52,773 nucleotides of DNA from Campylobacterales bacterium (GCA_027023405.1 JALVVN010000002.1:22658-75430), one strand, 5' to 3'; counted from the first letter of the stretch, positions 3,080 to 31,941 are shown. Translations and numbers: made by a program. Notes: generated by a model not told the origin, from the sequence alone.

Positions 3080-3156
3080 TTACTAGGTTTGGATAGGCTT
3101 GAGATAGGGTTAATGTGGAGCAAGAAACAAATTTATGCTTCTTTTTCACTTAGCTT

Positions 3157-4152
3157 TTATTCGTGAAATACTTCAAAATAGGTCGTAAAGTGATGCTTTG
3201 TATGGTTATCCGCGAAAAATTTATGTAGTCCGTTTAGGGAGTAGGGTGTTTGGGCTTTGGGATGTCCCATGGCGACAAAGTTCTCTTTGTCGGAGTATTT
3301 GATATATTCGTTGAGTGTGCGCTGAAGATAGCTGATACGATAGCCGTCGATAGAGGCGACGGCGGGTGTGAATTTGGTGAGCATCTCAAGGTTGTCTTTG
3401 CCCTCTCTGCCGACACCCTTTCCATCACCCATAATGCGGTGCGCATCTTTGGCAAATTTACGCAAAAGAGCGTAACGGATATAGAAGAGGGGAGAGACGG
3501 TGGTGCTAGAGATGGGAACTTCCGCAAAATAGCCGTTTTTGACTTCAATCAGCGGATCGGACTCAAAGCGCCAAAAGGTTTTTTTGGGGAGATTGTGAAA
3601 ATCAAAATAGTGGGTGCTATTTTTCTTGTACCCTCCCTCATAGAGTGTTGAGTCGAGCCATATTTTATTGGCTTTGAGTGCCTCTTTGAGATGTGTAAAG
3701 GGTTGGATGCACCATCCACCCGCGCGGTAGGCAAAAACACGATCGCCTACCAGTTCAGTCAGCGCCTCTTTGTAGCGGGTGACGATATCCATCGTCTCCT
3801 CTTTGGAAAAAGCGTGAATACGGTAGCGAGAAGTATCCATTTGCCACTGTGTACCGTCATAGTCGGTATCTTCCCAATGAGGATGGATATGGAGTTGGAT
3901 ATCGTGTCCGTTTTGTGAGAGTGTGCGGATTTGATCGGTGATGAGATCATAATCTTTTTGGAGTTGTGGATAGCGATCTTTGTAGTGTTTGAGTCGCACA
4001 AGATAGCCGGCATCGACAAAAAAGTTGAGTTTGATCATAAAATGATCGGCGATGGATGTCAGTGCATTGGTCGGTCTGATGATGCTGTTTTCAACACTGC
4101 CGCTAAAATCTGCGAAAAAGAGTTCATAGTCGAGGGTGATAAAGATGTTCAT
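3157..4152 (-). CDS. Polysaccharide deacetylase-like protein
   Basis: This 331-residue protein begins MNIFITLDYE, where the acidic pair of LDYE matches the catalytic motif of NodB-type carbohydrate esterases (usually TFDDG). Around 88-92 it reads HIHPHW, a second metal-binding motif, and near 140 AYRAGGWC. These features fit the polysaccharide deacetylase / WbmS-like superfamily, which removes acetyl groups from surface sugars through a divalent metal. There is no signal peptide, so action on a cytoplasmic sugar precursor is likely. Its ATG overlaps the end of the CapK-like gene by 4 bases, so the two form a surface-polysaccharide operon. The substrate is unknown. Confidence 0.75.
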   Translation of the reverse strand: MNIFITLDYELFFADFSGSVENSIIRPTNALTSIADHFMIKLNFFVDAGYLVRLKHYKDRYPQLQKDYDLITDQIRTLSQNGHDIQLHIHPHWEDTDYDGTQWQMDTSRYRIHAFSKEETMDIVTRYKEALTELVGDRVFAYRAGGWCIQPFTHLKEALKANKIWLDSTLYEGGYKKNSTHYFDFHNLPKKTFWRFESDPLIEVKNGYFAEVPISSTTVSPLFYIRYALLRKFAKDAHRIMGDGKGVGREGKDNLEMLTKFTPAVASIDGYRISYLQRTLNEYIKYSDKENFVAMGHPKAQTPYSLNGLHKFFADNHTKHHFTTYFEVFHE

Positions 4153-5444
4153 GCCGTCACTTCCTCATCGACAAAGCTCTCAAAGTCCTTCTGTTTTTTG
4201 CTTTTGCCCTCTTTGTATTCGACAAACTTTACCTCAACATCAAGGTCATCTTTAAAATACTCATGTGCGGAAGCAATTAGTTTCTCTTTGGCATCTGCCT
4301 CATCGATGCTCTCATCTTTGGTAATCTCAAAGAGCATTTTCCCTTTTTCGTACTGTTTGGCGGAGTAGGCGAGTTCGATGCCATATTTAAAGGAGAGGTT
4401 TTTGAAGGTGTGATTGATATTGATTGTGGAGTAAACCCCCTCTTTGCCGTAGATTTTGCGTCCGATCCGTCCCGTCACTTCCTTGATGATCTTGTGCGAT
4501 CGACCGCAGGGACATTTGGTTTCATTGTCGAGTACGATATAGTCACCCAGTTCAAAGCGAATAAAGGGGAGTGAATAGGCCCAAAGATTGGTGATGATCG
4601 CTTTGTTTTCAATCTCCTCGACGATGACATTCTCCATGACGATATGCATATTTCCTTCGGGACACTCATAGGCGATGACACCTGCTTCGGCTGATCCATA
4701 TTCACTGGTAATCTTTCTCCCAAAGACCTCTTTGACTGCTTTGTGGTAGCTATCATAGACCTTTTCCGCCGTACCTTTGACCATTTTGATATTGTCAAAG
4801 CGGTATCCGCGCTTTTTGAAATACTCTGCCATCATATGGATAGAGGAGGAGTAACCGGCGATATAGGTTGATTCTTTGATTCGTTTTGCGGCGCGTTCAA
4901 ACTCTTCGTTGGTGTAGTCAAAAAAGCGGTATCGGTTGAGTAAAAAATCTAACAGTCGGATTTTTATACGATCTTTGAACGATTTTTTAAATCCCCAAAA
5001 GTAGAGACTCTTCTCCCAAGGCTTGATTCCGTACCAGCTATAACCGCGATACTGCGCCGCACGAAAGGAGGCATCCCAATGAATATTTTTATTAAATAGA
5101 AAGACTTCACCTGTGGTACCGGAGGTTTCTGCCTTGATAAGGCTCTCTCCCGGCGGTTCATTACGCAGATCATCGGCGTGAGCTTTGAGCTCCGCTTTGG
5201 TTAAGATAGGAATTTTTTTGAGATCATCAAGTGTCATCGTATCGATATCAATATCTTTGAGACGCTCTTTATAGAAGTGTGTGGCGTTTTTAGCGTGATG
5301 AAGAAGTTTTTTAAGCCGTTTAAGTTGGATCGCCTCTAGCTCATCGATCGTGGCAAAGTCACTTTGCATCAGCTGTGACAGATGTTTTTGGAGGTAGGGG
5401 TTCTTGATGCGTTCGCCTAGAAGATAGAGATATTTGTGAAACAT
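4149..5444 (-). CDS. CapK / phenylacetate-CoA ligase-like adenylate-forming enzyme
   Basis: This 431-residue protein carries the adenylate-forming P-loop SGTTGE (about 108-113), the EYGSAEAG block near 250 and a CPCGR pair near 312, as in the PaaK / coenzyme F390 synthetase / CapK group. Members activate carboxylic acids with ATP; those next to polysaccharide genes are annotated CapK. It is the first gene of a two-gene operon with the deacetylase-like gene (4-base overlap), which points to modification of a surface sugar. Its ATG is preceded by GAAGGAAAATAAAGT, an acceptable ribosome site. The real substrate cannot be read from sequence. Confidence 0.78.
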   Translation of the reverse strand: MFHKYLYLLGERIKNPYLQKHLSQLMQSDFATIDELEAIQLKRLKKLLHHAKNATHFYKERLKDIDIDTMTLDDLKKIPILTKAELKAHADDLRNEPPGESLIKAETSGTTGEVFLFNKNIHWDASFRAAQYRGYSWYGIKPWEKSLYFWGFKKSFKDRIKIRLLDFLLNRYRFFDYTNEEFERAAKRIKESTYIAGYSSSIHMMAEYFKKRGYRFDNIKMVKGTAEKVYDSYHKAVKEVFGRKITSEYGSAEAGVIAYECPEGNMHIVMENVIVEEIENKAIITNLWAYSLPFIRFELGDYIVLDNETKCPCGRSHKIIKEVTGRIGRKIYGKEGVYSTININHTFKNLSFKYGIELAYSAKQYEKGKMLFEITKDESIDEADAKEKLIASAHEYFKDDLDVEVKFVEYKEGKSKKQKDFESFVDEEVTA

Positions 5445-5496
5445 ACTTTATTTTCCTTCTGTAAATAGATGTAATATCGACATTTTTTAAAAATAG

Positions 5497-5505
5497 ATAA
5501 TAGCA
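5497..5505 (-). promoter_or_regulatory. Candidate extended -10 for the capK-like operon
   Basis: The minus strand reads TGCTATTAT, an extended -10 about 53 bases upstream of the ATG at 5444, in AT-rich DNA. Confidence 0.45.
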
Positions 5506-5520
5506 AAATAAAAATTGTAT

Positions 5521-5545
5521 ACTACTTTTTTAGAGGTGCCCTTAA
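5521..5545 (+). repeat. Dispersed hairpin element, copy 2 (degenerate left arm)
   Basis: The right half CTTTTTTAGAGGTGCCCTTA is nearly identical to copy 1 at 3061-3079, but the left arm (ACTA instead of TCTA, no GGGC) has decayed. It lies in the divergent gap between the capK-like gene and the porin gene. Confidence 0.55.
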
Positions 5546-5630
5546 AGAAATCTAATTTAATTTGAGAATTGATTGAATAGAAGGTTGACATTTTTAAATA
5601 ATATTTTTTTTAAGTTCTTAATAATTGCTG

Positions 5631-5639
5631 TGTTATAAT
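5631..5639 (+). promoter_or_regulatory. Extended -10 promoter of the porin gene
   Basis: TGTTATAAT is a perfect extended -10, 31 bases before the porin ATG, preceded by T-rich stretches (5591-5616) of the type that replace the -35 box in Campylobacterota sigma-70 promoters. A clear ribosome site, AAGGAG, follows near 5660. Confidence 0.7.
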
Positions 5640-5670
5640 TGCACTGTGCGAATAAAAAAAAGGAGTTAAA

Positions 5671-7026
5671 ATGAAATTTGCAAAATTAAGTTTAGCGGCA
5701 GTTGCCGTATTGGGAATGGCTTCAGGTGCGTTTGCAAGTGAGAATAAATTTACTTTCAATCCGTTTGGAAGTGCAAAGTTGTACTATGAAACAATCTCAA
5801 AAGATCATCCTAAGCAAGACTTTTTTAACAGTGAAAGTGCTAGTGGCGGAGCTTTGATGAGCCTTGGTGCTAAGGGTAAGATTAACTCTTGCTTTGGATA
5901 TGGTTTCGAGGCGATGGGTGTCAATACACTGGGTCTTGAGAATAATCTTGTAAGCGGTGTGAGAATGGGGAACGGTAATAACCACCTCAATAATAATGCG
6001 CTTCAAAATACACTTGATGCTCAATTTTGGTTCCCGCAAGCCTATATCACTTATCACCCATGTGACATGGGAACAAATACAACCTTTAAAGTCGGTCGTC
6101 AATATCTTGATACACCGTTGGCATTTACAGAGAGATGGAATCTTGCTCCAAACTCATTTGATGCGATTGTAGCGTTGAACCAAGATATTATTAATACTAC
6201 TTTAGTTGCAACTTATGTCGGTCGTGGAAACGGTGTCTTTGGTGCTGTGACAAACGGTGAAGAGTTTACTGACTACGGTTATGGTGCTGAGCAAAGTGGG
6301 AATGTTGGAAAAAGTGGTGGAGCATATGCACTTGGTGTGATTACAAGTTTGCTCGATGGTGCACTCCCAATCAGTCTATGGGGATATGATGTAAATAATG
6401 TTGCAACAGCTTTTTGGGGAGATGCAGGATATAAATTGAATCTTGGTGACGGGATGAAATTTGATATCGGTGCGCAATATGGATATATTGATCCGGATAC
6501 CGATGCAAACTCTTATGCTGCGAGTTTAGTAGGTGCAACAGCGGCTGCGGGGCTTGATACTACGACCGGTTATGGTGTTAAAATTGGTGGAAATATGAGT
6601 TTGGCAGATATAAATTTTGGACTCATGGTGGCTTACTCAAGTGTTGATGAAGATGGAACTATCGCACTTGCGAATACTGCCACTCTCAAAGGGACAGGCG
6701 GTAAAAAAACGAAGCTATATACTGCCGGAATCTATACTGACGGTACCGGTGTAGCGGTTCCGGGATCTGACGCATATAAAGTTAAGCTTACTACAAAGCT
6801 TGCGGGTATAGGTGGACTTGCTATTCAATATGTAAGTTGTGATAATGATGATAATAAACCTATGCACAATGTTGACGAGACAGATGTTATTCTCTCAACA
6901 GGTATCCTTCCCGGTGGTTTGAATACAAAACTTATCTACATAAATAGATCAGTTGATAATCCTACGAATACAGGGCTTGCACAAGACACTGATCATATCA
7001 GAGTGGTTCTTTCTAAAAAATTCTAA
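5671..7026 (+). CDS. Major outer-membrane porin
   Basis: This 451-residue protein starts with a classic signal peptide (MKFAKLSLAAVAVLGMASGAFA, cleaved after about residue 22). The mature chain alternates polar and aromatic residues, is rich in Gly, Asn and Tyr, and ends RVVLSKKF with the terminal Phe that directs beta-barrels to the BAM machinery. It resembles Campylobacterota porins / major outer-membrane proteins that let small solutes through the outer membrane. Cys pairs (CFGYG near 75, HPCDMG near 131) may bridge loops. The strong extended -10 and ribosome site suggest high expression. It stands alone, flanked by a divergent operon and a terminator hairpin. Confidence 0.85.
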   Translation: MKFAKLSLAAVAVLGMASGAFASENKFTFNPFGSAKLYYETISKDHPKQDFFNSESASGGALMSLGAKGKINSCFGYGFEAMGVNTLGLENNLVSGVRMGNGNNHLNNNALQNTLDAQFWFPQAYITYHPCDMGTNTTFKVGRQYLDTPLAFTERWNLAPNSFDAIVALNQDIINTTLVATYVGRGNGVFGAVTNGEEFTDYGYGAEQSGNVGKSGGAYALGVITSLLDGALPISLWGYDVNNVATAFWGDAGYKLNLGDGMKFDIGAQYGYIDPDTDANSYAASLVGATAAAGLDTTTGYGVKIGGNMSLADINFGLMVAYSSVDEDGTIALANTATLKGTGGKKTKLYTAGIYTDGTGVAVPGSDAYKVKLTTKLAGIGGLAIQYVSCDNDDNKPMHNVDETDVILSTGILPGGLNTKLIYINRSVDNPTNTGLAQDTDHIRVVLSKKF

Positions 7027-7039
7027 TTTTTTGAAAGTG

Positions 7040-7064
7040 TAGCTTGGGGAGCTTTCCCCAGCTA
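7040..7064 (+). terminator. Terminator hairpin after the porin gene
   Basis: TAGCT-t-GGGGA, loop GCTT, TCCCC-AGCTA: ten pairs with one bulged T. The stem overlaps the stop codon of the convergent membrane-protein gene at 7062, so it could act on both strands. The T-tract on either side is weak. Confidence 0.6.
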
Positions 7065-7601
7065 TATTGTTAGAAATAGTTCTAGCCCTATCAAGAGTAC
7101 AAAGAGGTACTCAAAAAATCGTTTCTCTTTTTTCAGAAACGAAATTCTAAATCTTCGAATCGAATCTGAACGCCCCCCTCGTGTCATCTTTCCATCGACG
7201 AATCGTCCAGTATGGACTTCAAGATTGTCGACCGCACTTTCACTAAGCGGTTTTTTGCCGTGGGCGACTAGAAAGAGTGAATACTCCTTATTTAAGTAGC
7301 GTGCGACTTTCGGGTTAATCTTTTTATAATTGAGTATGGCATCGAGTGCATCGGTGATAACAGTTTTTGCCTTGAGGATGTTTAACCCTAAAAAGAGGTG
7401 CATAAAGAGTGCAAAAGAGACAAGTAGCGTCTGATGATGATAGTAGATAAAACTACCCAAAAGTACTCCGACAAAGATATAAATAAAGTTACTAAAACGG
7501 TATCTGTTGATTGCGCTAAACTCTCCTAACTCTATTGTATCAGCGAGATCGAGCCACGATTGGTAGCCGACGAGTTGCTTTTTGAGTGAAAAATCCATCA
7601 A
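7062..7601 (-). CDS. Membrane protein of unknown function, 179 residues
   Basis: I do not recognise this family. The sequence has two close hydrophobic segments (about 38-56 and 58-76), a soluble middle with many Lys/Arg residues (NYKKINPKVARYLNKEYSLF), and a C-terminal hydrophobic segment (about 162-178) after a basic patch, RRFRISFLKKEKRFFEY. It probably sits in the inner membrane with a cytoplasmic middle. It is a single gene converging on the porin gene. Two ATGs in a row (7601 and 7598) follow AGAGGATATATTG, and either may start it. Confidence 0.6.
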   Translation of the reverse strand: MMDFSLKKQLVGYQSWLDLADTIELGEFSAINRYRFSNFIYIFVGVLLGSFIYYHHQTLLVSFALFMHLFLGLNILKAKTVITDALDAILNYKKINPKVARYLNKEYSLFLVAHGKKPLSESAVDNLEVHTGRFVDGKMTRGGRSDSIRRFRISFLKKEKRFFEYLFVLLIGLELFLTI

Positions 7602-7740
7602 TATATCCTCTAATAATGTAAGGGTATGATCTTATGGGTAGATCTGCCTTTTAGATCAATCGACATTTTAAGATCGGTTTCAAGAAAAACAGTCGATTTT
7701 AGTCCTAAATGTTGTAAAATGATTCATTCTGTAACAGTAA

Positions 7741-9698
<1,958 letters not shown>

Positions 9699-9699
<1 letters not shown>

Positions 9700-10010
9700 T
9701 GGGATTTTGGGGATACTTTTTGATGTATGCGGCTATTTTTACCTATTTGACTTGGGGTGTTGTGGTCGCGTTTGAGAGTGTTTTAGTGATGGCGGGGAGT
9801 GAATTTGCCATAGAGTGGGTGCGAAAGCGCTATACGCTGAAGTTTTTTATGTTTGAAGTCTATCTCTTTTTCCCATTGGTCTTTTTGGGATATCTCTTTT
9901 TGGAGTATATTCCCTATATGCTAGGAAAAAATGATCATTTGGCAAAATTTGATATTGCGCAGGCAGTGTATGATGTATTTAAAGAGGATATAGATAGAGA
10001 GGTGTTGTAG
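9699..10010 (+). CDS. Small two-span membrane protein downstream of ligA
   Basis: This 103-residue protein has two long hydrophobic segments, about 2-30 and 48-70, and a short acidic tail (DIAQAVYDVFKEDIDREVL). I do not recognise the family. Its ATG shares one base with the ligA stop, so it is probably translated from the ligA message by reinitiation. No catalytic motif is visible. Its end lies within the stem of a bidirectional terminator. Confidence 0.6.
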
Positions 10011-10034
10011 ATCGACACAAGGTTCGATCTACAA
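10005..10034. terminator. Bidirectional terminator between the ligA operon and rpsO
   Basis: A perfect 11-pair stem, TTGTAGATCGA against TCGATCTACAA, with an 8-base loop. It contains the stop codon of the small membrane protein and lies 6 bases from the end of rpsO on the opposite strand. Confidence 0.65.
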
Positions 10035-10039
10035 GTGTG

Positions 10040-10315
10040 TTAGATATTGTCTCGAATACCGAGTGATTTGATAAGCTCAATATAGCGATCGTAATCTCTT
10101 TTCTTGAGATATTTTAAGAGTCTTTTTCTTTGTCCGACAAGCTTCAAAAGTCCTAGCCGAGAGCTATGATCTTTCTTGTTGATCTTCAAGTGCTCTGTCA
10201 AATATTTAATTCGCTCGCTTAAAAGTGCGACTTGAACCTCTGGAGAACCGGTATCGTTCTCACCTCTTGCGTATTGCTTAATGATCTGCGTTTTTTTCGC
10301 CAAATCCAAAGCCAT
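10040..10315 (-). CDS. rpsO: 30S ribosomal protein S15
   Basis: This 91-residue protein matches S15 along its whole length: the [14 protein letters not shown] block (about 23-36), the [19 protein letters not shown] helix (about 49-67) and the [20 protein letters not shown] end. S15 binds 16S rRNA early in 30S assembly. An exceptionally good ribosome site (AGGAGGTCACC) lies just before the ATG. Rrf2 and flhA are a few genes away, as in Campylobacter jejuni, but with inserted genes here. S15 commonly represses its own translation; no such leader structure was identified. Confidence 0.97.
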
Positions 10316-10346
10316 GGTGACCTCCTGATTGGTAAGTTAAGACGGA

Positions 10347-10352
10347 AGTATA
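10347..10352 (-). promoter_or_regulatory. Candidate -10 of rpsO
   Basis: The minus strand reads TATACT, 32 bases upstream of the rpsO ATG and downstream of an A-rich run. No -35 is obvious. Confidence 0.4.
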
Positions 10353-10374
10353 CGATTTTTTGCTTATAGTGAGC

Positions 10375-10941
10375 TTATTTTTGGAGCTTTCCGTGATGGT
10401 AGTTCCAGCTATTTTGCAAATGACCCTGTTCATCAAACGCTTTGAGTGTGCCCTCCAATTTGCCTGCTTGATAGTGTAGTTCATATTTTGTTGTGCCGTT
10501 AGGGTAGTAGATGGTGCTCACTCCCTCTTTTTTCCCATTTTTATAGTGCCATTTTGCCTTGAGGATACCATGCTCGTATTCCTTGATGATGCCATCGAGT
10601 TTTCCTGCTTTGTAGTAAAGGTTGTAGTGCAAAAAGCCGTATCGATTATAACGGCGTGCCACGCCCTCTTTGACACCGTCTTTGTAGTGGAACTGTGCTT
10701 TTTTCGTTCCATCCTTGCGATAGAGGATTGAGAGACCGTTGAGTTTGTCATTGTGAAAGCGCCACTTAGCTTTTAGGCTACCGTTGGGATAGTACTCTGT
10801 TGTAATACCCTCTTTTTTGTTATCTTGGAGTTGATAGACGAGATGAGGGCTTTTGTTGGGATAGTACTCCGTATAAGTTTCTGCCCAAATGTATAATGAA
10901 AATAGATAAATAAGTATAGTAACTCTTATAAAAAAATGCAT
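10375..10941 (-). CDS. Secreted MORN / YwqK-like repeat protein
   Basis: This 188-residue protein has a signal peptide (about 1-20) and then a run of roughly 20-residue repeats of the form YYPNG-LK-KW-Y-NGK-EG, for example EYYPNGSLKAKWRFHNDKLN and YYPNGTTKYELHYQAGKLEG. This is the MORN-type repeat of the YwqK group, often labelled antitoxin by homology although no toxin is next to it here. The repeats form a beta-sheet ladder and are probably periplasmic or surface-exposed. GAGGAG precedes the ATG. It stands alone between rpsO and the divergent lipoprotein pair. Function unknown. Confidence 0.75.
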   Translation of the reverse strand: MHFFIRVTILIYLFSLYIWAETYTEYYPNKSPHLVYQLQDNKKEGITTEYYPNGSLKAKWRFHNDKLNGLSILYRKDGTKKAQFHYKDGVKEGVARRYNRYGFLHYNLYYKAGKLDGIIKEYEHGILKAKWHYKNGKKEGVSTIYYPNGTTKYELHYQAGKLEGTLKAFDEQGHLQNSWNYHHGKLQK

Positions 10942-10990
10942 CTTTTTTTCTCCTCGGGAATGATATTTTAACCAAACGGGATTAAATATG

Positions 10991-10999
10991 TGTTAAAAT
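10991..10999 (+). promoter_or_regulatory. Extended -10 of the lipoprotein pair
   Basis: TGTTAAAAT lies 38 bases before the ATG at 11038 and is followed by a good ribosome site (AAAAAGGAAAG). Confidence 0.55.
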
Positions 11000-11037
11000 G
11001 TAACCAAATGAAAGTAGCTGGATAAAAAGGAAAGTTC

Positions 11038-11409
11038 ATGCAAGTTCTTAGACTACTGTTTGCTATCTTAGTGACGATCCATTTTGGAGGGTGTGCAACT
11101 TCTGCACCTCCGAGTATGGCATATTCTGATGCAAAATTGGCTTTAGCAAAGAGCGATACCCCTCAGGTAAGAAAATATGGTGCGGTGGAGTTAAGAAAGT
11201 GTAAGAGAAAGTTTCACAAACTTCAAAAACTGATAGAGCACAGAGAGTATGAAGAGGCAAAATTTCTTGCAAAGGAGCTTCAGATAGATTGTCGTCTGTT
11301 GCGACAAAAGGTCAAACGAAGAGAGGTACAGGCAGAGGTTCAACAACTTCAAGGAAAGCTCAATCGTGTTGAGGAAAATTTTGTACAGATAAAAGAGGGG
11401 GAGAAATGA
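11038..11409 (+). CDS. Small lipoprotein, DUF4398-like
   Basis: This 123-residue protein has an N-terminal hydrophobic segment ending in a lipobox-like FGGC (acylated Cys at about 19), so it should be anchored in the outer or inner membrane. The rest is helical and charged (YSDAKLALAKSDTPQVRKYG, then EVQQLQGKLNRVEENF), resembling DUF4398 proteins, which often accompany OmpA-domain lipoproteins. Its stop overlaps the start of just such a gene by 4 bases (ATGA). The pair probably acts together at the envelope. The DUF assignment is from memory of the pattern. Confidence 0.72.
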   Translation: MQVLRLLFAILVTIHFGGCATSAPPSMAYSDAKLALAKSDTPQVRKYGAVELRKCKRKFHKLQKLIEHREYEEAKFLAKELQIDCRLLRQKVKRREVQAEVQQLQGKLNRVEENFVQIKEGEK

Positions 11410-12143
11410 GTCGATTGAAAAGGAGTCTTTTTCTCTTGGTAATTGCGCTCTTTTTTGGGGCATGTTCACACTCCTTGCCTAACACGCCGCGTATCGCCCA
11501 TGCACTGACGCTCTATCATCAATTTCAAAAAGATAAGAGAGTTGAGCAGTATGCGCCCAAAGATCGTTTTGAGGCGGAACAGTTTTATCATATGTTAGAG
11601 CGTGAGAAGGATGAGAAGAGGGCGGAGCATTTGGCATATCTACTCCAAAAACAGATATTTATCGCCAAAGAGCGTGTCAAAACGGCTGAATTGGAGCATA
11701 CAAAGCTTCAGCTCAAAGAGAAGCTGATGCAAAAAGAGTTGCAACATAAGGAGATGGAGTTAGCGCGCGTCAAAGCCCGAGAGCAAAATTTAATTCAACA
11801 GGCAAGTGCACCTAGTGATCTTGATGTGAAAATGACAAAACGAGGAGTGCTATTTATCTTGAATGAGAACTATTTTGAGAAAGATCGTCAGAAGCTACTC
11901 ATCAGTGCACTTGCTCCTTTAGATCGTTTGGTGGATTTTTTGAAGCAACATCCGCAAAGAAAATTGTTGATTGAAGGTTATGTCGATGAGACAAAAGGTC
12001 GTGCGAGTGCATTGGACTTGGCGGTTAGACGAGCAGAGTCGGTTGCACAGATGCTGATCTCTCAAGGTATCTCTAAAGATCGTATCGAAACAAAAGGGTA
12101 TGTGGGAAATAAAACAGATGTGGAGATAACAATACTCAACTAG
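11406..12143 (+). CDS. OmpA-domain lipoprotein
   Basis: This 245-residue protein has a lipobox FGAC (Cys near 20), a helical, charged middle that is probably a coiled coil (about 40-140, KLQLKEKLMQKELQHKEMEL), and a C-terminal OmpA-like domain (about 150-245) with the signature IEGYVDETKGRASALDLAVR-AESV and the closing ISKDRIETKGYV. OmpA domains bind peptidoglycan, so this lipoprotein likely tethers the outer membrane to the wall. It overlaps the small lipoprotein gene upstream by 4 bases, which supports a two-gene operon. Confidence 0.85.
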   Translation: MSRLKRSLFLLVIALFFGACSHSLPNTPRIAHALTLYHQFQKDKRVEQYAPKDRFEAEQFYHMLEREKDEKRAEHLAYLLQKQIFIAKERVKTAELEHTKLQLKEKLMQKELQHKEMELARVKAREQNLIQQASAPSDLDVKMTKRGVLFILNENYFEKDRQKLLISALAPLDRLVDFLKQHPQRKLLIEGYVDETKGRASALDLAVRRAESVAQMLISQGISKDRIETKGYVGNKTDVEITILN

Positions 12144-12174
12144 CAAGGAGTAGGGGATACTCCTTATGCGCCAA

Positions 12175-12453
12175 CTATTTTCTACCGCAAAAACCAAGTT
12201 TTGCAGGTTTGAGATGCTCACCCGGCTCAAGTGGAAGTGTCTCAGCTTCAGGGAACTGAGAATAATCACAAGTTGTGCAGACACATCTCTTTTTATGATG
12301 CACTCTCTTTTTGACTGTAACATGACAGCAATCGGCAGTATATGGGACGAGTGAACCATCGTCATTGACCATCATCCATCCGGCATTTGCGGATGTTGCA
12401 AAAAGCATTGTAGTAACAACTGAAGCTAAAACAAGTGTGTTGAATCGTTTCAT
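12175..12453 (-). CDS. Small Cys-rich secreted protein, 92 residues
   Basis: A signal peptide (MKRFNTLVLASVVTTMLFATSANA, cleaved after about 24) precedes a 68-residue mature peptide with a CC pair, then VHHKKRCVCTTC and a last Cys in LGFCGRK. Six cysteines and several histidines in so short a chain suggest disulphides or a bound metal in the periplasm. I do not recognise the family. AAGGAT lies upstream of the ATG, and TATAAT on the same strand about 27 bases before the start. It stands alone, converging on the OmpA lipoprotein gene. Confidence 0.65.
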   Translation of the reverse strand: MKRFNTLVLASVVTTMLFATSANAGWMMVNDDGSLVPYTADCCHVTVKKRVHHKKRCVCTTCDYSQFPEAETLPLEPGEHLKPAKLGFCGRK

Positions 12454-12479
12454 AGTGTTCTATCCTTATTTTTAAATTT

Positions 12480-12485
12480 ATTATA
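12480..12485 (-). promoter_or_regulatory. Candidate -10 of the Cys-rich peptide gene
   Basis: The minus strand reads TATAAT inside AT-rich DNA. The remaining gap (12486-12721) is very AT-rich and holds only a possible TAAAAT -10 at 12693-12698 for the Rrf2 gene; I see nothing else in it. Confidence 0.45.
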
Positions 12486-12721
12486 CATAAAAACTATAAT
12501 AATATAGTTTGATGTATTGCTCCTATATCGACAATTATTTAAATTACTTTAATATTTTTTACTATAAATTAAAAATATTTCTCATTTTATCAAAGATTTG
12601 TTACATTCTGTGATATGTGGAGAAATGTATCTTGGACGAACTGAATATTTGAATATAAGAGTAAATTTATCGTTATTCTAACTTTCTTTAGATAAAATGA
12701 GTTGAAATACACACTTAATGG

Positions 12722-13126
12722 ATGGATATGCTACTAACAAAAGCGAGTGAATATGCACTTCTCTCATTGGCGTTGATTGCCAAAGCGGATGGACCCGAAG
12801 ATGTCGATACACTCTCAAAACGGTTGGGAATCTCTCGTAGTTTTTTAGCCAAAGTCCTACAGGCATTGGCACGCGATGAGATTCTTATCTCCTACAAAGG
12901 CGCAAAGGGTGGTTTTGCACTCAACGGCAAGCCTTCAGATATCTCTTTACGACGCGTGATTGAGTCAGCTGAAAAGCGGCATTTGAATGTATTTGAGTGC
13001 TCCTCTTCTGCGGCTAATTGCTCATCTGGCAAAGGGGACTTTTGTGTGATTTGGCCCTTTTTACATAAGTTTCAAATGAAGATCGATGACTTTTTAGAGG
13101 GGATGACACTTGATGAGATCCTCTAA
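12722..13126 (+). CDS. Rrf2-family transcription regulator with three cysteines
   Basis: This 134-residue protein has the Rrf2 winged helix (MLLTKASEYALLSLALIA, then LSKRLGISRSFLAKVLQALA as the recognition region, and YKGAKGGFAL as the wing). C93, C100 and C108 follow in the usual place for an iron-sulphur cluster (spacing C-x6-C-x7-C), so it probably senses redox state, nitric oxide or iron-sulphur status. It sits just before flhA, an arrangement also found in Campylobacter jejuni. The start may be the ATG at 12722 or 12728; neither has a strong ribosome site. Target genes are unknown. Confidence 0.85.
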   Translation: MDMLLTKASEYALLSLALIAKADGPEDVDTLSKRLGISRSFLAKVLQALARDEILISYKGAKGGFALNGKPSDISLRRVIESAEKRHLNVFECSSSAANCSSGKGDFCVIWPFLHKFQMKIDDFLEGMTLDEIL

Positions 13127-22984: not shown

Positions 22985-23272
22985 TTGAACAGAGATATCA
23001 TTTTAGAGTATCTTAGGAGGCATAAAAATGAGTTTGTTCAAAGATATGGTATAGAGAAGATTGCTCTTTTTGGCTCTTTTGCCCGGGGGGAAGCTAGAGA
23101 AGATAGTGATATAGATATTTTTGTGAAAATGAATCCTGATCTATTTAAAATGGTTGAATTAAAAGAGCAGATAGAACAAGATTTACAAAAAAAAGTAGAT
23201 ATTATAAGAGAGCATAAGCATATCAAGCCACTTCTTCTGAAAATGATACAAAAGGATCTCATTTATGTCTGA
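22985..23272 (+). CDS. MNT-type nucleotidyltransferase antitoxin
   Basis: This 95-residue protein carries the minimal nucleotidyltransferase motif FGSFARGEAREDSDIDI: G30-S31 and the metal-binding D42-x-D44. MNT proteins are antitoxins of HEPN toxins and can AMPylate them. The start is TTG 22985, preceded at six bases by AGGAG. Its end overlaps the HEPN start by 8 bases, as in intact MNT-HEPN pairs. The HEPN partner is broken, so this antitoxin is now an orphan. Confidence 0.88.
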   Translation: MNRDIILEYLRRHKNEFVQRYGIEKIALFGSFARGEAREDSDIDIFVKMNPDLFKMVELKEQIEQDLQKKVDIIREHKHIKPLLLKMIQKDLIYV

Positions 23273-24813: not shown

Positions 24814-25758
24814 ATGAAAATATTTTCACTTCTACTCCTATCGGTACTTTCCCTATCACAACTTTTCGGCAAAGGTGTCCGAGCCGGAACAGTGATCCAA
24901 AATATGGCGACGCTTGACTACACCATGGGAAAAAAAGAGTATCACACAAAGAGCAATGTGCAAAAGAGTATCGTTGCGCAACTGTTGGATGTCAAAGTAT
25001 CGTGGATGGATGCGCAGGATATTACGGTTGTATCGGGAGATAAAAAAAGAGTTTTGACATTTAAAGTATTAAATAGCGGAAACGGACCGGACCAATTTGA
25101 TCTTATTAAAAAATTTCTTCGTTTTCGATCCGGTTTCAAACCAAAAAGGAGCAGGATTTTTCTTGATAAAAATAAGAACTATTACCTTGATTCCGCTGAT
25201 CGCGTAAAGAGAAGTGTGACACTCCAGCCTGATGAAGAGCAGTTAGTTTTTGTTGTTTCCAATATAGGCAAACAGAAAGATGCGAAAAATGGGGAGAAAG
25301 CCTTCTACTCCCTCAAAGCTATCTCGCGCAAGGGTGGAAGTGGAGTGCCGGGGAAAGTTCACCACAAAAAAGGGGTCCAAAAGGTGGATGCCATCGATGG
25401 TCTCAGTGGTGGAGTAGGAGAGGATGAAGGAGCATACCAATTTTTAAAAGCGACATTGAAATTGAATAAGAGTGTTGAGCAGGATAGTAACGGTGTTATT
25501 ACTGTGACGATTGATATATCGGTAGAGGGTGAGGGAAGTGTGAAAAAAGTCAAAATTACTGATGAGATTCCGGATGAAACGATCTATGTCAAACATTCAT
25601 TACGACTTAACGAACGAGCTATCACGGATAGAAAAGATGGAGATGAAGGCTGGTATAAACGGCGTTCTAGAAAGGGTAAGGCTAAAATTTTTTTGAAATT
25701 AGGCGATATGGATATGATGAGCCATTACATTGTGAAATATCGGCTTAGAATCAGATAA
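24814..25758 (+). CDS. Secreted DUF11-like protein A of the barrel locus
   Basis: This 314-residue protein has a signal peptide (about 1-19). Its first part reads VIQNMATLDYTMGKKEYHTK, then DITVVSGDKKRVLTFKVLNS and SRIFLDKNKNYYLDSADRV, each with a counterpart in protein C at 26272, so the two are paralogues. DKNKN-YYLD looks like a calcium loop. The C-terminal part (about 205-314, beginning LNKSVEQDSNGVITVTIDIS and then VKKVKITDEIPDETIYVKHS) is a DUF11-type Ig-like domain. It is the first gene of a four-gene locus and has no strong ribosome site. Predicted extracellular or periplasmic; function unknown. Confidence 0.72.
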   Translation: MKIFSLLLLSVLSLSQLFGKGVRAGTVIQNMATLDYTMGKKEYHTKSNVQKSIVAQLLDVKVSWMDAQDITVVSGDKKRVLTFKVLNSGNGPDQFDLIKKFLRFRSGFKPKRSRIFLDKNKNYYLDSADRVKRSVTLQPDEEQLVFVVSNIGKQKDAKNGEKAFYSLKAISRKGGSGVPGKVHHKKGVQKVDAIDGLSGGVGEDEGAYQFLKATLKLNKSVEQDSNGVITVTIDISVEGEGSVKKVKITDEIPDETIYVKHSLRLNERAITDRKDGDEGWYKRRSRKGKAKIFLKLGDMDMMSHYIVKYRLRIR

Positions 25759-25768
25759 AGGAGTAGGG

Positions 25769-26251
25769 ATGAAGCGGTTGGTTGGTGTGTTTGTCGCATC
25801 TGTACTGATGAGTTCAAGTATAGTTGCAAAAGATACCTCTCCTATCTCATTGACAACAAAGGCATATAAAGAGGTCGTCAAAGTGGATAAGAGTGGCAAA
25901 AGAAAGAGGGCTTTGGTCGATGCAAAAAAGGTGATCCCTGGGGATATTGTTTTATATAAAAATATCATAAAAAACAACTCTAAAGCGGATGCGAAGGATA
26001 TGGTGCTTAACAATGTCATTCCAAAGCATACGGTTTATGTGCCAAATAGTGCCTCGTGTGAGGGAGGTTGTGAAATTCTATTTTCTGTTGATGGTGGAAA
26101 ACATTTTGCAAAACCAAAAAAATTGATGGTCACACGCAATGGTATCAAGAGAGTGGCTACGGCAAAAGATTATACCAATGTCAGATGGGTATTAACTAAA
26201 CTAGGTGCAAACAGGGAGACTTCTGTGAGCTTTAAAACAAAATTAAAATAA
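25769..26251 (+). CDS. Small secreted DUF11-like protein B
   Basis: This 160-residue protein has a signal peptide (about 1-20) followed by one DUF11-type Ig-like domain: KKVIPGDIVLYKNIIKNNSK, then MVLNNVIPKHTVYVPNSASC. The pair C-E-G-G-C probably forms a disulphide hairpin. It lies ten bases behind protein A with a strong ribosome site (AAAGGAGTAGGG), so the two are co-transcribed. Its domain resembles the C-terminal domain of protein C (IPGATIRYCYIVTN). Predicted to be displayed outside the inner membrane; no function known. Confidence 0.72.
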   Translation: MKRLVGVFVASVLMSSSIVAKDTSPISLTTKAYKEVVKVDKSGKRKRALVDAKKVIPGDIVLYKNIIKNNSKADAKDMVLNNVIPKHTVYVPNSASCEGGCEILFSVDGGKHFAKPKKLMVTRNGIKRVATAKDYTNVRWVLTKLGANRETSVSFKTKLK

Positions 26252-26271
26252 GTGACATATAGGGGATGAAC

Positions 26272-27357
26272 ATGTTAAAAATGAGTAAAAGATTCGCAAT
26301 GATTGCACTACTGGGGCTCGGTGCGACAAATGCGATGGCAAAGGGAACGGCATCGGGAACTTCAGTTGATACGACGGCTACATTGCAATTCACTGTCAAT
26401 GGAACGACTTCTCAGGCAACTTCAACTGAAAGTTATGTCGTGGATAATAAAGTCGATATGTCAGTGACAACGGTAGATGCGCAGGCAGTGACGGTTTCAC
26501 CGGGGAAAACAAATGTGTTGTTAAAATTTAAAGTTAGAAATGACGGTAACACCGTTCAAGACTTTCTTTTAAGCTCATTAAGCAACTCGACAACAGCATT
26601 TAGTGGAGCAAATCAAGTAACTGACAACTATGATTTGAGTAATGTAAGAGTTTTTGTTGATAAAAATGGTAACGGTGAATATGATGAGGGGACAGATACC
26701 GATACCTATATCGACGAGTTGGCACCGGATAAAGAGAAGACGGTGTTTATTGTAGCGGATGTACCGTCTGATGCGACGAATGATGCCATCGCGGTTTATG
26801 ATCTACAAGCACAAGTGGCACAAGGTGGTACTGCTTCTACCCAAGGAGATGCGATTACAAGTGATAATGCAAACCAAGCAGATGATAAAGCAAGTGTTCA
26901 AATTGTATTTGCTGACGGTGCCGGTAGTGCAGACAGTAAACATGACGGTAAGTTTAGTAGTGCAGATGCGTGGAAAGTGGTAACAGCCAAGGTAACGGTT
27001 TCAAAAGATTCTATCGTGATCGATGATCCGGTCAACGGTAAGAACAATCCAAAAAGAATTCCAGGTGCGACTATTCGATATTGCTATATTGTTACAAATG
27101 CAGAGGGTGGAGTGGATGCCAGCGGTGCATTGGTCACAGATACTTTAGATCCAAATATTCTTGATACATTCGGTCAAAGTGTTGCGATGTATAGTGGGAC
27201 CGGAACATGCGATTGTAATACACCCGATAGTGAAGCGACAGGTTCGAATGGTGCAAATGGTCAAGATCCGGATGCGCAAGGTGTTGTCAAAGTCGATTTT
27301 GATACTGTTGCAGGCGGTACGACTGAGTGCGCTTATGTAAAAGCGAAAATCAAGTAA
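26272..27357 (+). CDS. Secreted protein C, paralogue of protein A
   Basis: This 361-residue protein has a signal peptide ending NAMA-KG and a Thr/Ser/Asp/Gly-rich, low-Lys mature chain typical of surface proteins. Blocks match protein A: DTTATLQFTVNG, NVLLKFKVRNDGNTVQDFLL, and VRVFVDKNGNGEYDEGTDTD, a calcium-loop-like stretch. The C-terminal domain (about 255-361) resembles protein B and carries the tight cluster TGTCDCNT and a last Cys in TECAYV. ATG 26272 is chosen because AGGGG sits at the right distance; ATG 26266 abuts it. Acidic composition fits a major secreted or S-layer-like component, but that is inference. Confidence 0.72.
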   Translation: MLKMSKRFAMIALLGLGATNAMAKGTASGTSVDTTATLQFTVNGTTSQATSTESYVVDNKVDMSVTTVDAQAVTVSPGKTNVLLKFKVRNDGNTVQDFLLSSLSNSTTAFSGANQVTDNYDLSNVRVFVDKNGNGEYDEGTDTDTYIDELAPDKEKTVFIVADVPSDATNDAIAVYDLQAQVAQGGTASTQGDAITSDNANQADDKASVQIVFADGAGSADSKHDGKFSSADAWKVVTAKVTVSKDSIVIDDPVNGKNNPKRIPGATIRYCYIVTNAEGGVDASGALVTDTLDPNILDTFGQSVAMYSGTGTCDCNTPDSEATGSNGANGQDPDAQGVVKVDFDTVAGGTTECAYVKAKIK

Positions 27358-27372
27358 ATTTAGAGGATTTTT

Positions 27373-30300
27373 ATGAGAGTAGGATGGCTATTACTCCTCC
27401 TATTCTCTATACTTTTTTCTCCCCTTTCACTCTCTGCGTTAAATTTTAAAGATATTGTATTCCCTCCTGCCAAAGCCACCTTTGTCATAGCGGGTGAAGA
27501 GAGAGGACCAGATCAGGTGACAACCCAAACAGATGTGGTTGATACCCAACTTCATCAAGCCGTTTCGAATCATGTCAAAATTGTCGCAAAAGTGACAGAC
27601 CTCAATCAGACTTCTATTGATCCACAACCTTCACTCCTCTTTTATCGATATGATCCCTCCTCAAACTTTTTTGTGCAGATTGAGGGGGCGGATTACTTGT
27701 CGGGGGAAAGGGATTCAAGCCGCCATTTCAAGAAGTTGCCGCCACTACGATTACCCAATGGTGATACGATTGATATCGGCAAAAAGATCCCGATAGCCAA
27801 ATGCCTAATCTATCAAAAAAAAGAGCCTATATTTATCATCTACAATGATCCCACGCTTCACAAAGAAGGGGTCAAGGTCTCGATCAGCAGTCATGATGAT
27901 GAGGAGGTCATTCTTCTCAAACGAATCGAACGCAATAGTAGCAAATATATCGGATATATTAACACGACATCGGCTTGCGCGTGTAAAAAGCGATTTGACG
28001 GGAAGCTCTTTATCAAGGAGGGGGATGAGCTTGACGCTTCATTGTATGAGCCGAGCACAAAACGGAGCACCAAACAGCTCAGAAGTCTTAGCTCCAAAGT
28101 TCATGCAAAAGCCTATGTTGGGCAGAAACCTCAAAGAGTAGCCATATTGGATGAAAACCAATCGCATCCTGCAAAAGTATGGATTGATATGGAGGCTTCC
28201 AAAGAGAGGGTCGGTATAGGAGAGTTTTTTAAAGTAACGATAGCGTTGGAAAATAGCGGTGATCGTGATGTGATGAATATGAAACTTGTCAATAGACTCT
28301 CATCCGGTGCAACCTATATACAAAAGGGATTTTATCTGGATGATAAAAAGTTTCAACATGTTGTGATGGATAGGAAACACCATCGATTTAGCGTAACGAT
28401 TCCTCTCAAAGCACACCAAAGACGCACACTCTCTTTTGTCGTAAGAAACGAATCTCTCACTCCCGAGTATCTTATCGATAGTAGTGAAGTGATTTACCAA
28501 AACAACAGATCCAATAGCGCTACGATCAAGGTGAAACGAACGGATGACTTTGATGAGCGTGCCACCATCACCGGTCGGGTCTTGTTAGATGAAAATCGCA
28601 GTAGAGGAGTGGAGGGGGTGAAACTCTATTTGGATAACGGTAGAGTTGCGATCAGTGATAGATATGGAAAGTTTCATTTTGGGGAGCTTGATCCGGCTTT
28701 ACATCTGGTTTCTCTCGATTCATCCTCTATTGAGGGAAGGTATATCGCATATGAGTGTAGAGCCAATGCTAGAAGCGGTGGAAGTGCGCTCAGTAAATTT
28801 GTGGATACTTCAGCTGCTCATATAGGAGAGATAGCATTTTGTGTCAGAGAGAATAATATCACGACATCTCTCGAAAGTGAGCTCAGTTATCAGATACCAA
28901 AACCCAAAACGATTACGATGCCAAGCTATTCTGTCAATAGTTTTAGCACCTTGAAAAAAGAGCGAGTATTTCTCTGGCCAAAAGAGGGTGCTATTCCCTC
29001 CATGCCGGCAATCAAAGTTGCATTTTTGCATCACAAAAGTGACAAGATAGCACTCTTTGTCAATGGCAAAAAAGTCAATATGCTTAATTTTGACGGCTAT
29101 GTCGATAGTCAAGACAGGCAGTGGACAATCTCCAAATACCGGGGGATCGATCTGGATGATGGAGATAATCTATTGGAGATGGTGGTTAAAGATAAGAGTG
29201 GTAAAGAGGTGCGTCGAGTCAAACGAAAAGTGCACTTTTCCACTTCACCGATCAAAGCGGTTATCTTGCCTGATAGATCCTATCTTGTCGCCGATGGGCA
29301 AAATCCGCCGGTGATTGCCGTCAAAATATATGATGCCAGCGGATACCCGATTAGAAGAGGGGTTACCGGAACCTTCCAACTCTCCAAACCCTATCTCTCT
29401 TTGGCAAAGTCCAAGCTATATGAAGATGATCCGCTTCTTCACAGCGGTGAAAAAAATCGCTATATCATTGCGAATGACGGAATAGCCTATATCGAACTGA
29501 TGCCTACAACGGTGACGGGTGAGGTGAAGTTGCATTTTGAGTTTCAAGATCAGGGGCGTGAACTCACCGCATGGCTCAAACCAAAAGAGAAGAGGGAGTG
29601 GTTACTGGTGGGTTTTGCTGAAGGTAGTGTGGGATACCAAGCGATCAAAAAGCATCTTCAAAAGAGTAGCTCAAAGGAGGTCATACACAAAGGGGGGATC
29701 TCACTCTTTGCCAAAGGTTCCGTGGGAAAAGATACGCTTCTAACCATTGCCTATCAAAGTGCGAAACGCAGAGAAAACCCCAAGCGATTTATCGAAGAAG
29801 AGGTTCAAAATAGTAGACAATTTACCGTCTATGCAGATAATAGTATCGATAAGAATGAGGCGCCGACGAGTAAAAAACTCTACCTCAAGATCGAAAAAGA
29901 TCAATTTTATGCGATGTTTGGAGATTTTGAAACGGGGTTGGATAAGTTGGAATTGAGCAGATATAGCAGGAGACTAACTGGCATCAAGTCTGAATATCGC
30001 GGAGAGAAGTTTGAATATACTGCATTTGCGTCCAAGAGTGCAGGTGGCGTGAAAAGGGTGGAGATCACTCCCGATGGAACAAGCGGTCCCTACCCGATCA
30101 AAGCAAATGCCATACTTCCAGGAAGTGAGAAGGTCTATATTGAGGTGCGAGATAGGTATCGAAAAGAGCTGTTGCTAGATAAAAGAGGGTATGATGAAGT
30201 GTATGACTACTCCATCGATTATCAAAATGGATTACTCTATTTTAAAGCGCCGATCGCTTCAAGAGATCGTGCCGGAAATCCCCAAATGATTATTGTCGAG

Positions 30301-31941
30301 TATGAGATGGATGAGTCACAGCGCGATCGGATAGTAGCGGGTGGTCGAGGTGCTATCAAATTTGGAACCGGAGGGGAGATTGGGGCTAGTGCGATGACGC
30401 AAGAAAACCGCGACGATCACTATGATACGCTTTACGGTATTGACTTTAAAATGAATTTGCTGAAAAATTTGACGCTAAACGGTGAGTATGCTACAAGTAG
30501 CAAACAAACATCTAATGCAAACGCATATCTACTACGAATGCAACATTTTAATCAAAATATCCAAACCAAAGCCTACTTTCGACATCAAGAGAGAGGATTT
30601 GGTCTTGGGCTACAAAATAGTGCATTAGCCGGATCGAACCGATATGGTATCGATAGTACGATTAGCTATTTTGATAATTTTTTGTTGCGACTCTCCTACT
30701 ATGGTGAAAATGCGCTGCAAGATAAGCACAAAAAAGAGACAATGGAGAGCAAACTTCTCTTCAATCGAGGTGGATGGCTAGCAATGGTAGGATATCGGTT
30801 TGCCAAAGATAATATGCAAACCGAGGATGATGTGTCACAAATCATCTCTTCAGTACAAAAGAGATTTTTTCATAGTAAAGTGGGTATTTCGTTGGCGTAT
30901 GAAAAGAGTTTGGGGGAGAGAAGTGATGTGAAAAAGGATAGAACATTTGGGGAGATATCCTATAGATTTACCAATGCATTAGAACTTTTTGCCAATCACG
31001 AACTACTACAAGGTGCGACTAAGCGAGATGAGTTATCAAAAGTGGGTATCAAAGGTACGGCATGGAAGGGTGCGACAATACAAAGCGGTGTGAGTCAAAA
31101 ACTCGAAAATGATGAAGATAGGCTTTATGGATTTTTGGGACTCAGCCAATACTACCAAGTCAATAAAAAACTTTCACTCAACGGTGCCGTTGAAAAGCAA
31201 AAGTCTCTCAACAACAAAGCGATCCAAAAAGATTACACCTCCTATTCAATTGGGGCACACTATAAAAATAAAAAGTGGATTTACAATGGTTTGTTTGAAT
31301 ACAAAGATGGTTTTGATCGTGATAAGATCAATCTCAACTTTGGTATCTATACTGAAGTCAATAAGGATTTGGGTGTTGCGATGGGGATCAGGGAGAGTAT
31401 TAATGATGAGGTTAATAGCACCAAAGGGTATGAGGGAGAGCTCAAGTGTAGTGTCGCCTATCGAGGGGAGAGAGACTATACCCTGATGTCACAACTCAAA
31501 CTCCAGCATCAACACGATAGATTCGGCGAGAGCCAAACCCTTGTTACTGCTATCAAAGGTGTCGTCAAACCGTCGAAAAAGAGTCAAATATCCGGTCACT
31601 ATGCACTCAAAATCGAAAAAGAGAGGATCGATGATGAACCCTTCACAAGTAAGGTGGATTCGTTGGGTGTCGAAGCGATCTATGATATGACCAAAAAATT
31701 TGAGGTAGGGGCGAACGGGTCACTCTTGCATATGTGGGAGAGTGGAAATATTCGTCAGAGTTATGGTGGGTATGTGGGGTATAACCTCTTTAAAAATCTC
31801 TATTTGGGGGTAGGGTATAACTTCCAAGGTTACTATGATAGCGATCTTTCGGAGTACCTTGATAGTGCGCAGGGGCTCTATCTCAAAATGAGAATGAAAC
31901 TGGATAACGAATCGTTGCATCAACTGACAAAAAGTTTTTGA
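27373..31941 (+). CDS. 1522-residue outer-membrane barrel protein with Ig-like domains
   Basis: A signal peptide (about 1-21) precedes a beta-rich periplasmic or surface part. It includes a DUF11-type domain (about 266-380, FFKVTIALENSGDRDVMNMK) and a carboxypeptidase-regulatory / SpaA-like domain (about 397-455, ITGRVLLDENRSRGVEGVKL with SDRYGKFHFGEL). From about 840, beginning YAMFGDFETGLDKLELSRYS, the chain shows alternating aromatic/polar strands with short turns to the end and closes on Phe1522, so this is a large C-terminal barrel of some 20 or more strands. AGAGGA precedes the ATG, 15 bases after protein C. It may secrete or anchor proteins A-C. Confidence 0.75.
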   Translation: MRVGWLLLLLFSILFSPLSLSALNFKDIVFPPAKATFVIAGEERGPDQVTTQTDVVDTQLHQAVSNHVKIVAKVTDLNQTSIDPQPSLLFYRYDPSSNFFVQIEGADYLSGERDSSRHFKKLPPLRLPNGDTIDIGKKIPIAKCLIYQKKEPIFIIYNDPTLHKEGVKVSISSHDDEEVILLKRIERNSSKYIGYINTTSACACKKRFDGKLFIKEGDELDASLYEPSTKRSTKQLRSLSSKVHAKAYVGQKPQRVAILDENQSHPAKVWIDMEASKERVGIGEFFKVTIALENSGDRDVMNMKLVNRLSSGATYIQKGFYLDDKKFQHVVMDRKHHRFSVTIPLKAHQRRTLSFVVRNESLTPEYLIDSSEVIYQNNRSNSATIKVKRTDDFDERATITGRVLLDENRSRGVEGVKLYLDNGRVAISDRYGKFHFGELDPALHLVSLDSSSIEGRYIAYECRANARSGGSALSKFVDTSAAHIGEIAFCVRENNITTSLESELSYQIPKPKTITMPSYSVNSFSTLKKERVFLWPKEGAIPSMPAIKVAFLHHKSDKIALFVNGKKVNMLNFDGYVDSQDRQWTISKYRGIDLDDGDNLLEMVVKDKSGKEVRRVKRKVHFSTSPIKAVILPDRSYLVADGQNPPVIAVKIYDASGYPIRRGVTGTFQLSKPYLSLAKSKLYEDDPLLHSGEKNRYIIANDGIAYIELMPTTVTGEVKLHFEFQDQGRELTAWLKPKEKREWLLVGFAEGSVGYQAIKKHLQKSSSKEVIHKGGISLFAKGSVGKDTLLTIAYQSAKRRENPKRFIEEEVQNSRQFTVYADNSIDKNEAPTSKKLYLKIEKDQFYAMFGDFETGLDKLELSRYSRRLTGIKSEYRGEKFEYTAFASKSAGGVKRVEITPDGTSGPYPIKANAILPGSEKVYIEVRDRYRKELLLDKRGYDEVYDYSIDYQNGLLYFKAPIASRDRAGNPQMIIVEYEMDESQRDRIVAGGRGAIKFGTGGEIGASAMTQENRDDHYDTLYGIDFKMNLLKNLTLNGEYATSSKQTSNANAYLLRMQHFNQNIQTKAYFRHQERGFGLGLQNSALAGSNRYGIDSTISYFDNFLLRLSYYGENALQDKHKKETMESKLLFNRGGWLAMVGYRFAKDNMQTEDDVSQIISSVQKRFFHSKVGISLAYEKSLGERSDVKKDRTFGEISYRFTNALELFANHELLQGATKRDELSKVGIKGTAWKGATIQSGVSQKLENDEDRLYGFLGLSQYYQVNKKLSLNGAVEKQKSLNNKAIQKDYTSYSIGAHYKNKKWIYNGLFEYKDGFDRDKINLNFGIYTEVNKDLGVAMGIRESINDEVNSTKGYEGELKCSVAYRGERDYTLMSQLKLQHQHDRFGESQTLVTAIKGVVKPSKKSQISGHYALKIEKERIDDEPFTSKVDSLGVEAIYDMTKKFEVGANGSLLHMWESGNIRQSYGGYVGYNLFKNLYLGVGYNFQGYYDSDLSEYLDSAQGLYLKMRMKLDNESLHQLTKSF

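Follow-up and report, generated by a model that had tools for sequence, protein, structure and literature searches.

Several outer-membrane systems combine a beta-barrel with immunoglobulin (Ig)-like substrates, of which the chaperone-usher and type IX systems are the closest to the locus described here. Ushers are barrels with a plug-like insert and periplasmic N-terminal domains that serve several Ig-like substrates, and the C-terminal domain of the two-domain adhesins exported by them is a subunit domain. In the type IX system, cargo proteins with varied N-termini have a constant C-terminal domain, and this Ig-like domain is the signal, the residues that matter most lying at the very C-terminus (PMC4804311); it is recognized inside the pore of the giant barrel SprA (PMC10994853). 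We analyzed a stretch of 52,773 nucleotides from a Campylobacterales bacterium (GCA_027023405.1, JALVVN010000002.1:22658-75430; hereafter the window), which contains a four-gene locus encoding three small secreted Ig-like proteins, A, B and C, and a large protein, D, with a predicted barrel at its C-terminus. We found no published description of such a locus in the open-licence literature. Our analyses indicate that A, B, C and D very likely work together as one system, and the chances are about even that D is the dedicated exporter or anchor of the other three.

The view that the four genes form one system is based on their distribution. In a sample of 397 near-complete genomes, evenly drawn from the phylum to which the window belongs, full-length D was detected in eight genomes and C in exactly the same eight. 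B was also present in these eight genomes, with one weak partial match elsewhere. An isolated protein of 183 residues that is weakly similar to B is encoded on the minus strand of L090 (G412:C134, positions 9314-9865), with no cassette nearby. Thirteen of 22 genomes of the family contain a D homologue (30-67% identity), and 12 of these 13 also contain C; in the remaining one the contig starts inside D. Inspection of the loci showed that a homologue of A adjoins in every cassette whose contig reaches that position. Moreover, the only record with C among 72,556 plasmids also carries D, A and a gene resembling gene E (see below). A lone C-type gene, possibly encoding a satellite subunit, lies among unrelated genes in L091 (G018:C100, positions 1468-2553); this genome additionally contains a full cassette, together with a second D fragment (L033, L092). 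Finally, in 16 loci the four proteins have diverged in a correlated manner, as judged from their pairwise distances (r 0.61-0.93, Mantel p <= 0.0005). The co-occurrence in the eight genomes, the conserved packing and the correlated divergence bear out the single system proposed by the initial annotation of this DNA. Every full-length D homologue whose neighbourhood is intact is accompanied by the small proteins, so that this condition for refutation, named in the initial annotation, did not arise.

The genes are arranged in the order A-B-C-D, C-A-B-D or C-B-A-D, on one strand, mostly with short gaps, and with D located after the small genes. Because the gene order varies and the genes on either side are for the most part unrelated from one locus to the next, the cassette is regarded as one portable module. 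A comparison of L028 with L035 points to replacement of the whole cassette, since the neighbouring genes of these two loci are 73-85% identical, whereas the cassettes themselves are only 32-48% identical and have a different gene order. Cassettes are also present outside the phylum. A metagenome-assembled genome (MAG) of the betaproteobacterium Sulfuriferula has the order A-B-C-D-OmpA-E, and plasmid pTHN of the alphaproteobacterium Novosphingobium sp. THN1 contains A, C and D followed by an E-like gene. The C and D homologues of pTHN (L084, positions ~5900-12700) are in several broken frames, reflecting either sequencing errors or a decaying copy. A more distant cassette is present on plasmid p4 of the gammaproteobacterium Acinetobacter haemolyticus (LIS44_16285 to 16330), and a Smithella MAG encodes a D homologue on a contig that is too short to show its neighbours. 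The spread beyond the phylum is under-sampled, because the large scan of genome contigs, in which two relatives were found, used D alone. Taken as a whole, the data are best explained by A-B-C-D being a self-contained, horizontally mobile cell-surface module, an explanation that we consider to have an even chance of being correct.

The genome around the window is 2.03 Mb in size, assembled in 44 contigs and 99.9% complete. The tight packing of the four genes noted in the initial annotation was confirmed: the open reading frames (ORFs) are all in the same orientation and are separated by gaps of 10, 14 and 15 nucleotides (Table 1). Inspection by eye supported the Sec-type signal peptides reported earlier for A, B and C, identified another one on D, and revealed no lipobox cysteine in any of the four proteins. 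For C, the longest ORF starts at 26266, and the start given in the initial annotation, at 26272, is its second methionine; close homologues begin there, so that the two starts are equally likely. SelO, which is encoded 24 nucleotides downstream of D, was rejected as a member of the system because other genes occupy that place in other cassettes. Besides the TIGR01451 match of B described below, searches with profile libraries produced only sub-threshold matches to DUF11 in A, B and D and to GEVED in C. Automatic annotation would not explain the locus, because these libraries detect almost nothing in A to D.

Table 1. Coordinates (window positions) and main features of the four proteins.
Feature	Position	Strand	Description
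Protein A	24814..25758	+	314 residues, secreted; AGT-type N-terminal Ig, middle Ig-like and C-terminal DUF11-like domains
Protein B	25769..26251	+	160 residues, secreted, strongly basic; single DUF11-type domain, TIGR01451 above cutoff
Protein C	26266..27357	+	363 residues (361 from Met at 26272), secreted, strongly acidic; two Ig-like beta-sandwich domains
Protein D	27373..31941	+	1522 residues; signal peptide, Ig/DUF11/SpaA-like domains, predicted C-terminal beta-barrel
D residues 388-1522, part modelled with AlphaFold	28534..31941	+	

The three small proteins had been described as divergent copies of each other. This holds for A and C, which are 30% identical over 186 residues (BLASTP, E 1e-19) and align over 317 columns when their profiles are compared (E 6e-31); by these sequence comparisons they are full-length paralogues. 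For B the relationship is weak. B of the window had been likened to the C-terminal domain of C, and the two showed no significant similarity (E 1.2; profile E 0.08); the proposed likeness is found only in other genomes, whose B proteins match the profile of C (E 4e-7 to 2e-8), or indirectly, because B is similar to the domain at the end of the A profile (E 4e-7). B is the only one of the four proteins that scores above a curated cutoff (TIGR01451, 31.9 bits versus a cutoff of 24), with A being just under it (22.1 bits). A pair of cysteines is conserved in most B homologues. The proteins differ in charge: C is acidic in 18 of 18 cases, with an isoelectric point of 4.1-4.2 (~4.2 for C of the window), B is basic in 17 of 18 (8.9-10.4; ~10 in the window), and the charge of A varies across the same set.

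The AlphaFold model of C (predicted local distance difference test score, pLDDT, 86.8) consists of two Ig-like sandwiches. The Ig domains look complete, and no disordered or free N-terminal extension follows the signal peptide. A fold search with C returned only generic multi-domain Ig matches with low template modelling (TM) scores, integrins being first, and profile searches against the sequences of solved structures yielded nothing meaningful for any of the four proteins. In congeners having the cassette at one chromosomal site (L079 versus L078 and L080), the middle domain of C is only ~20-30% identical, whereas the start of C is ~65-70% identical, its stretch DPxN..NPKRIPG 76%, and A, B and D 72-83%. 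This pattern suggests that the middle domain of C is exposed and has been swapped.

The N-terminal half of D contains an AGT-like domain and a DUF11 domain (~270-360), a SpaA-like domain (~395-460) and Ig-like domains (~530-770). The DUF11 match of D in the window scores 18.2 bits, below the cutoff of 24.6, and those of its homologues 36-41 bits; the SpaA/SdrD-like domain was likewise detected in homologues. A profile-profile comparison (E 4e-8) supports the earlier suggestion that D carries the same types of domain as A, with the AGT-like and DUF11 domains of D being related to A. Conserved first strands and a plug-like insert follow at ~790-970, then the putative barrel up to ~1508 and a short tail.

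We modelled residues 388-1522 of D with AlphaFold using 21 homologues (pLDDT 74.7, predicted TM score, pTM, 0.51). The model contains Ig-like domains, a linker of low confidence, 32 strands of at least eight residues between positions 970 and 1508, and about three more strands at 845-889. The better Foldseek matches of the model include MtrB, Deinococcus SlpA and the S-layer deinoxanthin-binding complex (SDBC), LptD, TonB-dependent receptors and SprA, which are all outer-membrane barrels and all matched with low TM scores. Hence, the structure prediction agrees with the barrel claimed in the initial annotation: D is predicted to end in an unusually wide outer-membrane beta-barrel of ~32-36 strands. 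The insert that separates the early strands, at ~890-970, is among the best conserved parts of D and would suit a plug. The terminal phenylalanine that had been taken as a sign of a barrel did not stand. The last predicted strand, at 1501-1508 (GLYLKMRM...), is followed by a short helical tail, and we rejected the terminal residue as a conserved barrel signal because this tail varies among homologues, ending in F, W, K, R or H. A match of D to the NCBIfam family GalA (16 bits versus a cutoff of 900) was also rejected, as it reflects an Ig-like domain.

The same genome contains a second barrel system (L037, G000:C31:16000-29154), consisting of two ORFs (71-9373 and 9370-12879) that overlap by 4 nucleotides. 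They encode an SdrD_B repeat protein of 3100 residues and a barrel protein of 1169 residues that matches positions 739-1049 of D. Relatives of this two-gene system are present in at least five genomes of the family and also on alphaproteobacterial plasmids. The DUF11 matches in the genome of the window are all located in these two barrel systems. The wider barrel family does occur without A, B and C, but then beside a large SdrD/DUF11 partner. In relatives of L037, this partner ends in a D-like DUF11/SpaA region and then an OmpA-type domain, the Pfam cutoff for which was exceeded in three of five cases. Similarly, an OmpA-like remnant immediately precedes the Ig-barrel part of the D homologue from Smithella, and a gene of the OmpA family is located after D in Sulfuriferula and Acinetobacter. 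OmpA domains bind peptidoglycan. Because they adjoin the N-terminal Ig, DUF11 and SpaA region of D in relatives, this region is most simply placed on the periplasmic side, where it most likely sits. In addition, D looks like a fusion of the terminal region of the partner with a barrel, and such an origin suggests that both halves interact.

In the sister family f4 (loci L077-L082), an additional gene, E, directly follows D with an overlap of 4-7 nucleotides. The N-termini of the E proteins vary and comprise a PA14 domain in two, a lamin-tail domain (LTD) in one, a MAM-like domain in one and, weakly, nidogen-like (NIDO) domains in others. Over their final ~125 residues, the E proteins are similar to C, whose own last ~125 residues form this constant domain. 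By analogy, the combination of heads that differ with an Ig-like domain that stays constant at the C-terminus may be likened to the layout of usher adhesins and type IX cargo. A, B, C and E all stop at the last strand of the domain, with the ending [YF]-x-[VAT]-x-[ILV]-[KRNQ]-COOH, which is loose in some. This ending was seen across four groups, including the phylum of the window and the beta- and alphaproteobacterial loci, and a B-like protein of Acinetobacter extends three residues past the terminal strand.

These features can be combined into the following model. Sec would take A, B and C across the inner membrane, after which the N-terminal domains of D, its pore, or both would recognize their C-terminal Ig/DUF11 domain, and the barrel would pass them out or hold them at the outer surface. 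The acidic C would be the main exposed and diversifying subunit with an exchangeable middle domain, displayed with B and A as adaptors, and E, in the sister lineages, would be an adhesin attached through its C-type domain. The module might form an adhesive layer or a fibre, with A, B and C being located at the cell surface. Within this model, we slightly favour export of A, B and C by D, and D being dedicated to these proteins, and to E where present, as their exporter or anchor is evenly balanced with other roles. Recognition of the C-terminus as the signal is a plausible but less probable part of the model. Several points weigh against it. The window locus lacks E, and the terminal strand motif may merely be the usual ending of a DUF11/Ig domain. 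The positive charge of B could equally mean binding to lipopolysaccharide. The model of D is of moderate quality, as judged by its pTM, and its TM scores to known barrels are ~0.2 or less over the query. Finally, neither an energy source nor a chaperone is evident.

Other explanations of the locus have to be considered. D might be a surface anchor, on which an S-layer-like coat of A, B and C that reach the surface by another route is docked. The acidic C together with the basic B could form such a coat, and SlpA/SDBC structures occupied ranks 3, 6 and 8 in the Foldseek search with D (TM ~0.2). Many other barrels, however, gave matches at least as good, and C is a small protein with several subunits as partners, unlike a large S-layer protein. 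Moreover, the OmpA domains of the relatives place the D-like domains on the periplasmic side, and the cassette is not accompanied by any other conserved export gene. We therefore regard an S-layer anchor as unlikely.

A special form of the export and assembly model is that C, and possibly A, polymerize on D into a pilus by strand exchange in a chaperone-less manner, with E being located at the tip where present. The multiple Ig-like substrates, the adhesin-like E sharing the subunit domain and the exchange of the middle domain of C are in line with such a fibre. Donor-strand polymerization, however, receives no support from the model of C, in which the Ig domains look complete and no disordered N-terminal extension is present. 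In addition, the usher family (PF00577) was not found in D, in its homologues (Pfam) or in the genome, and the PapD chaperone family (PF00345) was not found in the genome, while the E. coli controls were positive for both. A fibre of this kind seems about as improbable as the S-layer anchor.

An autotransporter-like arrangement has still less in its favour. Here the N-terminal Ig region of D itself, of 780 residues, would act as surface passenger, with A, B and C as accessory partners in the periplasm or at the surface. The passenger-then-barrel order of domains would fit, and surface adhesins typically contain Ig, SpaA and DUF11 domains. Known autotransporter barrels, however, have 12 strands, far fewer than the 32-36 predicted for D. 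In addition, the OmpA domain of relatives either separates the SpaA-like region from the barrel or terminates the partner protein, and this argues for a periplasmic position of the supposed passenger. Besides, the start of the Ig-plug-barrel part is the most conserved part of D, which would be unusual for a passenger; we consider this explanation quite improbable. That D is a receptor for the uptake of a nutrient or metal, with the Ig proteins being unrelated surface decorations, is very improbable: distant relatives of D are automatically annotated as TonB-dependent receptors, but no family of TonB-dependent receptors or plugs was detected in D (Pfam, NCBIfam), and D co-occurs near-perfectly with the Ig proteins.

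Scans of the window for other signals did not contribute to these conclusions. Promoter-like matches were near the number expected from shuffled sequences (24 versus 17, standard deviation 3.7) and terminator-like matches were fewer than expected, so that neither was used; no structured RNA families or tRNAs were found in the window. A small nucleotidyltransferase of the MNT type, with the motif GSFARGEAREDSDIDIFV, is encoded at positions 22985-23272; immediately after it, no HEPN partner is obvious.

Should D export or assemble the Ig-like proteins, the locus would represent an outer-membrane export route in the style of ushers or type IX secretion with parts of neither, and several groups of bacteria would possess this route, annotated for example as "DUF11 domain-containing protein" or "TonB-dependent receptor". 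We view the locus as a putative system for export or assembly of surface proteins with an outer-membrane barrel; it may even be a categorically new pathway. Tentatively, and with more doubt than for export itself, this would be an undescribed pathway in which a barrel of more than 30 strands serves both to recognize a C-terminal Ig/DUF11 domain and to assemble Ig-like surface proteins that are interchangeable, with neither an usher chaperone nor a type IX motor, and which has spread between the phylum of the window and the alpha-, beta- and gammaproteobacteria. DUF11, a common yet poorly understood domain, would gain a testable role in Gram-negative bacteria, namely being recognized by a partner barrel or attaching to one. 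The existence of modular adhesin-like proteins with PA14, lamin-tail or nidogen-like heads on a constant C-terminal domain would also be explained. The cassette is compact and can be transferred to a laboratory strain.

Family tests led us to reject membership of the locus in either the chaperone-usher or the type IX class. The predicted barrel of D is larger than that of ushers and is unrelated to them in sequence, and the incomplete Ig fold of chaperone-usher subunits is not seen in the model of C. With SprA, D shares its giant size; in contrast to the type IX system, however, the putative substrates are encoded beside the barrel. Pfam scans gave no match to SprA_N in D or its homologues, the genome-wide search for SprA being one without a working control. 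Por_Secre_tail was found neither in A, B and C nor in the genome, in a search whose control rang below the cutoff only, and no genes for the type IX inner-membrane motor GldL/GldM or the carrier PorV were seen among the neighbouring ORFs listed, where no search was aimed at these families. Autotransporter barrel and FhaC/POTRA-type families were also absent from D and its homologues (Pfam, NCBIfam). Two further systems resemble the locus. In the SdrD_B/DUF11 system with a barrel protein of ~1170 residues, the barrel is homologous to D 690-1100 and the DUF11 and SpaA domains of the partner are those of the N-terminal half of D; it differs in having one large partner with an OmpA domain and no A, B, C or E. 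The Acinetobacter p4 operon, which has no named function, contains small DUF11 proteins, then a giant D-like DUF11 protein, an OmpA protein and one more DUF11 protein, which has the same strand at its C-terminus. It differs in that its D, of 2009 residues, is more divergent, and in the extra OmpA and a larger E-like protein. By analogy, the principle on which the A-B-C-D system would work resembles that of an usher or a type IX translocon, built from different parts.

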